Source of the DNA: Candidatus Gastranaerophilales bacterium
GTDB lineage: Bacteria > Cyanobacteriota > Vampirovibrionia > Gastranaerophilales > Gastranaerophilaceae
Direction: 5' to 3'
Assembly (NCBI GenBank): GCA_944325155.1
Contig: CALUYY010000013.1
Span: forward strand, 1 to 39,818
DNA length: 39,818 nt
The notes under the pieces are model-generated. The model was given only the letters and a program-made list of their open reading frames with translations. It was not told the DNA's origin and made no database searches. Both the position numbers and the translations under genes were made by a program. Below, piece after piece: positions 3,584-23,049 of this stretch (the first letter of the stretch is position 1; each line of letters begins with the position of its first letter).

Positions 3584-4168
3584 TTATTCTTTATCCGCAG
3601 TTTCTGCCGGTTTTTGCGAAGGAAGCGGTTTATCTTTTTTTAGTTCTTTATGTCTTTTTTCAAAGTTTTTTCTTCCTTCTTCTTTCATTTTTTTAAGCTC
3701 TTTTTGCTGTTTTTCCGTTAAGATTGATTCAAAATCTTTCATATTTTTAATTCTTAAATCTCTTATTTGTTTATCAAGTTTGCGGATTTCGTTTTTAAGA
3801 GCCTGAATTTGTTCTTTTTCGGATTGTGTTAAGGATTGCTCCTTAATTGTTTTGATTTCGCCCCGTTTTGCTTTAATTTCTTCAATTATCGGCTTCATTT
3901 GTTCGTGGCTTTTAATCCTTAATTCTTTTGCTTCCTGTTTTTGTTCATCGGTTAATTTTAAGCGGTTTTCAAATTCGGCTTTTTTCTTTTGCATAACTTC
4001 AGGTGAAGGTCCTCTGTGATGGTGTCTCGGTCCTTTAAAATCGGGGGCGGGAGCCGTTTTTTCAACATCGGGTTTTAAAGGAGCTTCATTTTTAGCGGTA
4101 TCCGCCGCATAGCATGATAAGGTTGAAGCAAGCGCAATAAATGCAGCAAGCGCAATTGTTTTTTTCAT
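3584..4168 (-). CDS. Spy/CpxP-like periplasmic protein (LTxxQ), candidate stress sensor
   Basis: 194 residues with a signal peptide (MKKTIALAAFIALASTLS, probable cleavage near A21-A22). It has a His-rich segment GPRHHHRGP at residues 47-55, then long charged helices carrying two LTxxQ motifs, LTDEQ at 72-76 and LTEKQ at 150-154, as in Spy, CpxP and ZraP. These proteins form helical cradles that act as chaperones or metal sensors. The start at 4168 is preferred over the ATG at 4186, because AAAGGAAC lies just before it and the signal peptide begins there. It is the last gene of an operon behind an anti-sigma and an ECF sigma, resembling CnrX in cnrYXH. The histidines suggest metal binding, which is inferred. 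Confidence 0.82.
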   Translation of the reverse strand: MKKTIALAAFIALASTLSCYAADTAKNEAPLKPDVEKTAPAPDFKGPRHHHRGPSPEVMQKKKAEFENRLKLTDEQKQEAKELRIKSHEQMKPIIEEIKAKRGEIKTIKEQSLTQSEKEQIQALKNEIRKLDKQIRDLRIKNMKDFESILTEKQQKELKKMKEEGRKNFEKRHKELKKDKPLPSQKPAETADKE

Positions 4169-19903: not shown

Positions 19904-21310
19904 TTAAAATCTGAAATAAATAAAAGGATTATAAGTTGAAGCGGCTATTGTTGCCGTTGATATTATAAAAAGAATCAAAAGCCAGAAATTAATCAGCCCG
20001 TATAAAATTTTATTTTCTTTTTTAATGTTTAAAATATTTTTAAATATCGGCATTGAACATAAAATTGCCGCAACAAAAGCAATAATTTCAAATGTATCTA
20101 TATAATAAGGAAGTGCGTAAGAAACAGAAGGGGGATTAATCTCAACAAGATTAAACATATTTTTTATATATTCAAAAGCATAATTTATATTATCCGCCCT
20201 GAATATTACCCAGCCGATTACAAAAATAAAAATTGCATAAATATGTTTTATAAAATTAAGCGGTTTGGAATTTGTTTCTTTATGCAGGTTTGTAATTTTT
20301 TCCAGTATTATAAAAAATCCGTTCCAAACACCCCAGATAACAAAAGTCCAGTTTGCACCATGCCAGATACCCGTTAAAAGAAAGACAACGCCTAAATTAA
20401 AACAGGTTCTTTTCATTGAACATCTGCTTCCGCCCAGAGGAATATAGAGATATTCTTTAAACCATGTCGATAATGAAATATGCCATCTTCTCCAAAACTC
20501 GGTTATTGATTTTGAGATATAGGGATAATTAAAGTTTTCCATAAATTTAAATCCGAATATCATGCCAAGACCGATTGCCATATCCGAATATCCCGAAAAA
20601 TCAAAAAACAACTGGAAAGTATAACTTATGGCGCCAAGCCAGGCAATAAGAGGGCTGAAAGCATCCGGAGATTGAGCAAAAATTTTGTCGGCAACTGCGC
20701 CTAATGTATTTGCAATAAGCATTTTTTTAGAAAGCCCTATGATAAATCTTTTAACTCCGTATTGGACTTTTTCGAAATCAACGGTTCTTGAATTTATTTG
20801 TTCTTCAACATCGTGATATTTAACAATCGGCCCTGCGATTAATTGCGGGAAAAGACAAATATATAAAGCAAGTTTGTAAATATCTTTTTGAACTTTTACA
20901 TCGCCCCTGAAAACATCTATTGTATATGAAATGGCTTGAAACGTATAAAATGAAATGCCGATAGGCATTATAACGTTAATCGGGTCAACGGATAATTTAA
21001 AAAGAGAATTTATATTGTCGATTATAAAATTGAAATATTTAAAATAAACCAGAAATGAAAGATTTAATATGACGGTTAAAATAAGATAAAGTTTTTTATA
21101 TTTTTGAAATTTATCAATTAAAATTGCGCCGAAATAGTTAATTATGATTGTAATAAACATAATTGCAAGGTATTTAGGCTCTCCCCAGGCATAAAAAAGA
21201 ATGCTTGCAATAAGTAAAATGCCGTTATGAAGTTCCTTTTTGCTAAAAAGATATAAAAGACATACAATCGGCAAAAACAGGTATACAAAGGTCATTGAAC
21301 TGAAAAGCAT
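19904..21310 (-). CDS. MBOAT-family O-acyltransferase (AlgI/DltB-like)
   Basis: 468 residues with about ten to twelve membrane helices. FDFSGYSDMAIGLGMIFG, WRRWHISLSTWFKEYLYIPL and LTGIWHGANWTFVIWGVWNG are the defining AlgI-type motifs; the histidine of GIWHGANW is the catalytic MBOAT histidine. The enzyme should carry an acetyl group across the membrane for O-acetylation of a surface polysaccharide. It begins one base after the DHHW-domain gene, with AAGGAGG as binding site inside that gene's end, and the two form the usual acetylation pair. Its expression is tied to the phase-variable reading frame upstream by cotranscription. Confidence 0.92.
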   Translation of the reverse strand: MLFSSMTFVYLFLPIVCLLYLFSKKELHNGILLIASILFYAWGEPKYLAIMFITIIINYFGAILIDKFQKYKKLYLILTVILNLSFLVYFKYFNFIIDNINSLFKLSVDPINVIMPIGISFYTFQAISYTIDVFRGDVKVQKDIYKLALYICLFPQLIAGPIVKYHDVEEQINSRTVDFEKVQYGVKRFIIGLSKKMLIANTLGAVADKIFAQSPDAFSPLIAWLGAISYTFQLFFDFSGYSDMAIGLGMIFGFKFMENFNYPYISKSITEFWRRWHISLSTWFKEYLYIPLGGSRCSMKRTCFNLGVVFLLTGIWHGANWTFVIWGVWNGFFIILEKITNLHKETNSKPLNFIKHIYAIFIFVIGWVIFRADNINYAFEYIKNMFNLVEINPPSVSYALPYYIDTFEIIAFVAAILCSMPIFKNILNIKKENKILYGLINFWLLILFIISTATIAASTYNPFIYFRF

Positions 21311-21311
21311 T

Positions 21312-22580
21312 TTATTTTTCCTCCTTTGGATACATATTTAAAATCGGCTTAAAATATCTTGCGTCAAAATTTAATATCAGGATATCGGGTTTAAAATCAA
21401 GGATTTCTTTTTCATATCTTTTCATTTTCATTTCATCTTCATATTTAACATGTCCGTCATTAATTCTCCTTTTGTACATTCTTTTAAAATTATAAGGAAG
21501 AAAATGGCTTAAATTTTCTGTCATGCTGTTTCCGATTAAAAACACGGACAAATTGTTACTTGAATTTTTATAATTATAGATTCTTGTTGTACGTATTTTT
21601 TTAATTGTTGTTTCAAGATTTTTATCATCTTTATGCTCAAGATATATATAGTCCTCATCCAAAACTTTTTTATCCTTAAGCCCTAAATCTGAAAGAAGTG
21701 TTTGTCCGAGATATTTTTTATCAAGAGTATTTATTACATATACATATTTATTTTTGACCAATCTGAATTCATCCAAAGACATCGGCTTATAAGAATGAAA
21801 ATCTTTTTTTATTTCCTCCGCCAATTCCAAATATCCAAACCATGCCGCATAATCCGTCCAATGGTGATCCGTTTTAAAGAACATAAATTCATTTTTTGCC
21901 TGTTTTTGGATTTCATCAAAAGGATAAACAATTTTAATGTCCGTATTTTCTTTTATGTAGTCAACAAACCCTTTATAGTTATCCTTATCTTTTATTAAAA
22001 TCGGATAAGTATTACCTTTGTATAAAAATTCTTTTGAAGGTGTAATTAATATATAAAGCTTAATATTATTTTTATTGCAGAAATCGTTATATTTAGATAA
22101 ATTTTCGGCCGCTAAAATAATTTGTTCTTTTTTTATACCGTTTTTTAATACTTCCTGTGCATATTTATCAAGCCTGAAACACCAGTTTGTTTTTTTGTTT
22201 ATAAAAGCTCTCGGGGTTTCATAATAATTAATTGCAGAAGTATATTTTACAAAATTATAAGCTTTTATAACCTCGCCCCTTAAATTAAATCTGTCGTTGA
22301 ACCATTTATCAAAATCTTTTCCGAAATTATAATTTATTTTTCCGTCTTTAATAAAAGGTTTGTAAACTGCAAGTTTTCTGTTTTCGGCTTTTGAAACATT
22401 ATCTTTTTTTATATGGCTCATCGGAATAAAAAGAAGAATAAAAAATATTAAAAGAAAGACAATATCCAGCCTTGAACAATTCTTAACGGATTTAAAATCC
22501 GCAAGATAATTTGAAAGTTTACAGGATAAAAGAATCGATAAAACCAAAATTACAATGAAATTTAAAATATCAAATTTCAT
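21312..22580 (-). CDS. DHHW/AlgX-like acetyltransferase domain protein (downstream part of a split gene)
   Basis: As it stands this frame encodes 422 residues: two membrane helices near residues 5-22 and 40-57, then an SGNH-like domain with KLYILITPSKEFLY, the signature FKTDHHWTDYAAWFGYLELA near residue 235 and IGNSMTENLSHFLP. DHHW/AlgX/AlgJ proteins accept acetyl groups from an MBOAT partner and pass them to the glycan. The ATG at 22580 has no good ribosome binding site. With one G fewer in the run at 22751-22762, the frame continues without any stop back to 23049, giving one protein of about 578 residues. I believe that longer protein is the real product and this is the out-of-frame remainder. 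Confidence 0.85.
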   Translation of the reverse strand: MKFDILNFIVILVLSILLSCKLSNYLADFKSVKNCSRLDIVFLLIFFILLFIPMSHIKKDNVSKAENRKLAVYKPFIKDGKINYNFGKDFDKWFNDRFNLRGEVIKAYNFVKYTSAINYYETPRAFINKKTNWCFRLDKYAQEVLKNGIKKEQIILAAENLSKYNDFCNKNNIKLYILITPSKEFLYKGNTYPILIKDKDNYKGFVDYIKENTDIKIVYPFDEIQKQAKNEFMFFKTDHHWTDYAAWFGYLELAEEIKKDFHSYKPMSLDEFRLVKNKYVYVINTLDKKYLGQTLLSDLGLKDKKVLDEDYIYLEHKDDKNLETTIKKIRTTRIYNYKNSSNNLSVFLIGNSMTENLSHFLPYNFKRMYKRRINDGHVKYEDEMKMKRYEKEILDFKPDILILNFDARYFKPILNMYPKEEK

Positions 22581-22710
22581 TGCGGCTCTCAGCTTAAGAG
22601 GTTTATTATAGTTTATTACAACCTTTTTATTTTTGGGGGTGATTATTAAATTATTTTTATCATAAGAAAGTTTAGCGTCATCCGAAGTAAAATTTTCAAA
22701 ATCTTTTAAT

Positions 22711-23049
22711 TTATATGAACCGAGCCGAAACGAAACGGGGCTTAATTTTACCCCCCCCCCCCGACAGAGTTTTAAGGTTTAATACGATTTGAATTCTTTT
22801 CGGAAAAATCGGTTTTTTAAAAGAGTAAGATAAATATTTTTTATTTTTATTAACCTTTTTTGTTTGGGATTTAAATTTTATAAATTCGTTTGAATTTTCA
22901 TTATTTAATTTAACTTCAACAGATTGAAGATTTTCCCCTTTAATATTAAATCCGACATCAATGGGTTTTTTAACAAGCCAGTAATTCTGCAATAAAAATA
23001 TTGCCAAAATACTGAAAACTCCCGCTGTTATAACTCTCTTTTTTATCAT
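22711..23049 (-). CDS. N-terminal part of the phase-variable DHHW protein (frame closed by poly-G)
   Basis: 112 residues. A signal-anchor helix (VITAGVFSILAIFLLQNYWL) is followed by a beta-rich extracytoplasmic stretch. The frame reaches the G12 run, reads L-S-G-G-G-G, and ends 18 codons after it. With 11 G it would read L-S-G-G-G-V-K-L-S-P and run on through 58 or so further codons into the MKFDILNF start at 22580 in frame. With 13 G a TAA follows at once. So of these lengths only 11 gives a full-length protein, and the state seen is OFF. A TATAAT (minus strand, 23084-23079) lies 29 bases before the ATG. Confidence 0.75.
   Translation of the reverse strand: MIKKRVITAGVFSILAIFLLQNYWLVKKPIDVGFNIKGENLQSVEVKLNNENSNEFIKFKSQTKKVNKNKKYLSYSFKKPIFPKRIQIVLNLKTLSGGGGKIKPRFVSARFI
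22751..22762 (-). repeat. Homopolymeric G12 tract inside a coding region (phase-variation switch)
   Basis: Twelve C on the plus strand are twelve G on the coding strand, extreme in this A+T-rich DNA. It is placed exactly where the reading frame of the acetylation gene breaks. Tracts of 8, 11 or 14 G would keep the frame; 12 does not. Slipped-strand changes of such tracts are the known basis of phase variation in Campylobacter and Helicobacter. Confidence 0.85.

Follow-up and report, generated by a model that had tools for sequence, protein, structure and literature searches.

A predicted glycan O-acyltransferase gene in an uncultured Candidatus Gastranaerophilales bacterium of the gut is very probably a phase-variable (contingency) gene that is turned on and off by slippage in a run of G, its on state providing the full SGNH enzyme that would take part in an acyl relay with a neighboring MBOAT protein. 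Because comparable runs, both in-frame and out-of-frame ones, occur in this gene among relatives, a random on/off switch is very likely. The gene lies in a stretch of 39,818 nucleotides (hereafter, the window), which is the whole of contig C13 of a 1.88-Mb genome that is 97.8% complete.

One gene in two pieces

The gene is represented in the assembly by two overlapping pieces that meet at a run of 12 G (G12), and the following features describe them.

22751..22762, minus strand: homopolymer G12, proposed to act as the slippage switch; the gene is in frame with 11 or 14 G and out of frame with 12 G
22711..23049, minus strand: upstream fragment of 112 aa, made up of the N-terminal membrane anchor, the initial beta-domain strands, and a tail read in the shifted frame
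21312..22778, minus strand: downstream open frame, 488 codons to the stop, comprising the rest of the beta domain, TM2, TM3, and the SGNH/DHHW catalytic domain
21312..22580, minus strand: ORF of 422 aa from an internal ATG that is unconserved in homologues

As expected of a contingency gene, the coding sequence holds a long repeat tract that exceeds chance: approximately 0.001 G/C runs of 12 or more are expected in the window under a first-order Markov model, no G/C run other than G12 reaches 8 there, and the A/T runs of the window do not exceed 8. Adding or removing units also shifts a gene that is otherwise intact into or out of frame. When the frames were recomputed, the protein from ATG 23049 ended at 112 aa with the 12 G of the assembly and was truncated at 99–111 aa with 9, 10, or 13 G, while with 11 G (578 aa) or 14 G (579 aa) it reached the stop at 21312. 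The sequence-only reading had proposed that a 12-G run splits a DHHW/AlgX-like gene on the minus strand, with an open frame at 11 G and a stop at 13 G; all of this was confirmed, and 14 G is in frame too. The 112-aa upstream fragment is the expected OFF-state product.

We searched all six frames of the window with a profile built only from intact, tract-free homologues. Profile positions 6–97 matched the ORF at 23049–22714 (E = 1.4e-14), and positions 105–582 matched the ORF at 22778–21315 (E = 6e-140); the two matches are collinear, and the frame changes at the G12 run. Because the tract-free profile matches both with the frame change at the run, the upstream and downstream ORFs are one gene, and part of the conserved beta domain is accordingly encoded between the run and ATG 22580. 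The existence of two separate genes is ruled out by this match across both ORFs and by the unconserved internal ATG. Relatives were also checked for two separate genes without a tract, and none had them; tract-free relatives have a single intact gene instead, built as had been predicted for the full product (a signal anchor, a beta-rich domain, two more helices, and the DHHW domain). The earlier claim that translation can read through the gap at 22581–22710 into the downstream frame proved right as well, since the profile spans both pieces.

When the run is out of frame, translation might start at ATG 22580 and give a shortened protein that retains two helices plus the catalytic domain, so that the run would switch between isoforms. 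A weak GAGAG lies upstream of this ATG, and naturally short forms of ~450 aa that lack the beta domain occur in several relatives. Because the N-terminal 112 residues of PatB are dispensable in vitro (PMC12148441), a product of the internal start might keep some activity. However, the residue at this position is I, A, or others in homologues, with M only in L120 among those inspected, and the natural short forms retain the first membrane helix. Being unconserved, ATG 22580 probably does not mark the natural start of the gene, and we consider an isoform switch unlikely.

A predicted SGNH acyltransferase paired with an MBOAT protein

The catalytic residues of the downstream piece and the neighboring gene are located as follows.

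21861..21869, minus strand: catalytic D-x-H of TDHHW (D238 and H240 in the numbering of the 422-aa ORF)
21525..21527, minus strand: catalytic Ser (S352 in GNS), with no substitution among the 31 aligned homologues
19904..21310, minus strand: MBOAT membrane acyltransferase gene, starting 1 bp past the DHHW stop
19907..19924, minus strand: FIYFRF at the MBOAT C-terminus, which fits the FXYXXF acyl-shuttle motif of bacterial MBOAT-SGNH systems (PMC12148441)

The downstream ORF matched the ALGX (3.7e-10) and DHHW (6.2e-08) domains, and the adjacent gene matched MBOAT (PF03062, E = 2.7e-35), which confirmed the partner that had been proposed for the DHHW gene. The His of TDHHW is invariant in the 31 aligned homologues, and the Asp position is occupied by D in 23 and E in 5 of them (D/E in 28/31). 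Among relatives, FXYXXF is found at the C-terminal end of all complete MBOATs, and an MBOAT gene adjoins the SGNH gene in nearly all homologues with room for one. At four loci (L118, L129, L131, and L132), the MBOAT gene is broken into two frames, and no G/C run of at least 7 is present where it breaks.

We modeled the intact relative L128 with AlphaFold2 (mean pLDDT 82). The model comprises a membrane helix, a beta-sandwich at approximately residues 31–157, helices at 171–193 and 204–221, and an SGNH domain, the membrane assignment being made by eye from the sequence. Its best Foldseek matches were a DHHW protein (4nzk), PatB1 (5v8d/5v8e), AlgJ (4o8v), and AlgX (4knc); the next was a weak match (E = 2e-3) to a carbohydrate-binding module (2xhh), which probably covers the beta domain of the model. 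The run of L128 encodes glycines that are placed in a loop, between a strand ending at 114 and a strand starting at 129, and a longer run should therefore be harmless to the predicted fold.

The locus has the components of an MBOAT-SGNH pair, namely an adjacent MBOAT, a C-terminal FXYXXF, and an SGNH fold with Asp-His-Ser, the fold being that modeled for L128. Judged from its sequence, the split gene is a three-TM AlgX/DHHW (SGNH) acyltransferase paired with an MBOAT protein. The DHHW/AlgX domains, the MBOAT partner, and the acyl-shuttle motif support the glycan O-acylation role put forward earlier; that the group transferred is acetyl is a guess, and so is the identity of the acceptor, presumed to be a surface glycan. 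The ribosome-binding AGGAGG of the MBOAT gene (21320–21325) lies within the DHHW gene, so that translation halted past the run could also lower MBOAT expression.

Recurrent tracts in homologues

A profile search of 84,980 species genomes, one genome per species, yielded 45 loci, and the set used for the tree had 42 rows including the window. A tract was defined as a G or C run of 8–13 in the N-terminal part. It was carried by 12 of the 42 homologues, the window included.

Tract in frame: L105, L108, L123, L128, L120, L130
Tract out of frame: the window, L102, L114, L118, L137, L141

Both frame states, which homologues of a contingency gene should display, thus occur in six cases each, a share in frame (6/12) that is not clearly different from the one-third expected without selection. 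In every out-of-frame case, the sequence is open on both sides of the run, and both sides look homologous to the intact protein. The tracts lie at about 44, 101–106, 117, 130, 142, and 159 in L128 numbering, with the run on either strand. The nearest parallel is L128 itself, from a genome of another genus of the same family (G022), in which an intact 576-aa gene carries G13 in the corresponding part of its N-terminal domain. Comparison of the locus among relatives had been suggested as a check on the sequence-only reading; the lengths found were 8–13, six in frame and five out, with no fixed in-frame tract, and these recurrent tracts in both frame states support phase variability.

On a tree of the catalytic domain, the presence of the tract requires 10 gains or losses, at least seven of which are forced by well-supported (starred) branches, and the tract label is no more clustered than in shuffles; the tract has therefore been gained and lost repeatedly. 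In relatives with usable spans, there were 11 runs of 8 or more in the gene (75 kb) versus 13 in the flanks (273 kb), a 3.1-fold difference (p = 0.007) that is if anything understated because some flank runs sit in DHHW paralogues (L114). All 11 in-gene runs of the relatives are 1256–1543 nt before the stop, and that of the window is ~1450 nt before it. Recurrent gain and loss together with this placement thus indicate that the gene has repeatedly been given a slippage tract in the tolerant part of its first third.

These data also bear on whether the window holds a decayed gene, in which a one-off frameshift marks a gene that is being lost. The assembled copy is out of frame, and the gene is missing from many relatives, being present in 9 of 38 genomes. 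Against decay, 478 downstream codons are open with all catalytic residues retained, the MBOAT gene is intact, and five relatives with the run out of frame also have open sequence to either side of it; we regard it as highly improbable.

Two other arrangements were observed among the homologues. L114:3513-9044 holds four or more DHHW-type genes in tandem, every one with a C9–C10 run in a similar context; one of them is apparently in frame, and at least one is out. In L108 and L123, the N-terminal 90 codons are near-identical, tract included, and the catalytic domains come from different clades; from this pattern, the N-terminal half seems to have been exchanged by recombination.

Runs in the source genome and mismatch repair

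The genome from which the window derives has four G/C runs of 12 or more versus 0.05 expected (~80-fold enriched), the expectation being calculated with the same Markov model on window composition, and 16 A/T runs of 9 or more versus ~1600 expected for its AT-rich sequence (~100-fold depleted). This genome keeps A/T runs short and lets few G/C runs grow. Runs of at least 10 G occur at five loci, the G12 of the window among them; the others are listed below.

C1 (at 145396): 10 G in a hexapeptide transferase gene, in frame
C17 (at 15140): 12 G in a GT56-like glycosyltransferase gene, in frame
C6 (at 5931): 12 G at the very end of an acyltransferase-3 gene
C16 (at 15353): 12 G downstream of an amine-oxidase-like gene

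The window comes from a metagenome assembly, which gives a single consensus length, and the 12 G could be an assembly or sequencing error in the homopolymer of a gene that truly has 11 G and is always on. Even in that case, a run this long is expected by chance far less often (~0.001 in the window) than it is observed, and it could slip. Furthermore, independent assemblies of relatives show lengths of 8–13, in frame and out of frame about equally, and the other within-gene runs of the same genome, with 10 or 12 G, are in frame. An error is accordingly very unlikely as the explanation of the split.

The convergent intergenic regions on C6 and C16 (L011:3909-4000 and L012, minus strand, ~3854–3865) have in common a repeat-like stretch of 91 nt around G12 that is 84% identical, in which the G run could form pairs with a C-run located downstream. 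A 42-nt match to this stretch is present on C13. A mobile repeat was considered as the source of the tract and rejected: in other genera, the tracts that homologues carry in this domain are flanked by unrelated sequence, and for this reason the 42-nt match of C13 is taken to be mostly the G run itself.

MutL (TIGR00585) was absent from the genome of the window, and no sampled member of its genus had a match over the cut-off, one having a trace match only; most of the Gastranaerophilales family keeps MutL. The MutS1 of this genus is divergent, scoring 407–498 bits (one fragment aside) versus more than 900 in most other genomes, of which few were sampled. In Campylobacter jejuni, mismatch repair is non-functional, and the rate of change of tracts of this kind is 1e-4 to 1.6e-3 per division (PMC8355987). 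By analogy, the absence of MutL and the divergent MutS1 should raise slippage in the genus of the window. As a general cause of many tracts, MutL loss was rejected because tract-rich genomes (G063, G017, G045, and G022) have MutL and genomes without it have fewer tracts (median 2.5, versus 7 with MutL, across the family); it may still raise the switching rate in this genus.

A proposed switch and its relation to known systems

Replication slippage in the G run would change its length by one or more bases and thereby shift the second half of the gene into frame or out of it. With 11 or 14 G, the full SGNH/DHHW O-acyltransferase of ~578 aa would be made, consisting in order of a membrane anchor, an extracytoplasmic beta-sandwich, two membrane helices, and the catalytic domain. 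The MBOAT protein would transfer an acyl group, which is probably acetyl, through the membrane to its own C-terminal Tyr, and the SGNH protein would accept it on its Ser and hand it to a surface glycan. With 12 G, translation would end after 112 residues, and the glycan would stay unmodified. We infer both replication slippage as the source of length change and the MBOAT-to-SGNH relay from established knowledge, and the sequences suggest live switching in the population; that its benefit is phage or immune evasion is a guess. Long homopolymers can slip in transcription, and transcriptional or ribosomal slippage on the run might give some full-length protein at any tract length. We consider such leakiness unlikely, and it would be compatible with DNA-level switching.

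The proposed DNA-level switch is like the poly-G/C contingency genes for capsule and lipooligosaccharide in C. jejuni (PMC8355987) in that G/C homopolymers lie in coding regions of surface-glycan genes, several per genome, and the genus of the window lacks MutL as C. jejuni lacks functional mismatch repair (PMC8355987). It differs in its unrelated lineage, in having an MBOAT-SGNH pair as the target, and in that most of the Gastranaerophilales family has MutL. The oafA gene of Haemophilus influenzae encodes an AT3-type enzyme and has a tetranucleotide repeat, unlike the MBOAT and SGNH proteins with a G run found here, which would constitute a different acetyltransferase. The two systems are alike in the phase-variable acetylation of a surface glycan, which is predicted here and for which oafA, acting on lipooligosaccharide, is cited in PMC11868660.

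As a pair, the proteins resemble PatA/PatB, AlgI/AlgJ/AlgX, and DltB/DltD (PMC12148441), with adjacent MBOAT and SGNH genes, Asp-His-Ser, and a C-terminal FXYXXF, the Tyr of which carries the acyl group in PatA (PMC12148441). The modeled fold of the relative L128 likewise matches PatB1, AlgJ, and AlgX. The three membrane helices, the inserted beta-sandwich, and the slippage tract set the present pair apart from these systems.

Poly-G switching as a mechanism is already known from Campylobacter and Neisseria; novelty appears to lie in the lineage, in the MBOAT-SGNH pair as target, and in the scale. Searches of the open-access literature returned nothing on phase variation in Gastranaerophilales, which is weak evidence of novelty, nothing on homopolymeric tracts and phase variation in metagenome-assembled genomes, and only ribosomal-protein trees for Vampirovibrionia and pilin. 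Poly-G phase variation of surface sugars would be extended to a non-photosynthetic cyanobacterial relative of animal guts, and gut metagenome reads that already exist from many hosts allow tract lengths to be counted, which would tell whether a gut commensal hedges its surface against phages or immunity.

Family-wide tracts and prepilin-like genes

G runs of 10 or more were present in 79 of 97 genomes of the family, with a median of 5 and up to 124 per genome; fewer than one is expected for a genome of window composition. In G098, the runs are in glycosyltransferase-like, polytopic membrane-like, epimerase-like, and other glycan or surface genes (named by eye), in both states. G045 (L060–L079) shows another pattern: 29 of the 35 long G/C runs examined precede a type IV prepilin motif (FTLAEVLITLGIIGVVAA) and usually lie 9 codons past an ATG, with 22 being G10 and out of frame and 3 being G11 and in frame. 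One of these prepilin-like genes matched Pfam N_methyl (9.5e-05). The sequences make a default-off, phase-variable pilin-like repertoire possible in this genome.

We consider it fairly likely that Gastranaerophilales is an unrecognised phase-variable lineage, with tens to more than 100 G/C tracts per genome in many genomes of one family, affecting glycan genes and, in at least one genus, default-off sets of prepilin-like genes from which single surface fibres would be switched on. The family-wide counts suggest that public data contain a large and unstudied reservoir of genes subject to phase variation, among them pilin-like genes.

In G022 and G003, many G runs are within ~100 bp of a contig start (e.g., G022:C3:4, C10:5, and C58:10), as if mixed lengths or repeats interrupt the assemblies at these points. 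The nucleotide that precedes the G run is mostly C in G022, G045, and G080 and mostly T in G003.
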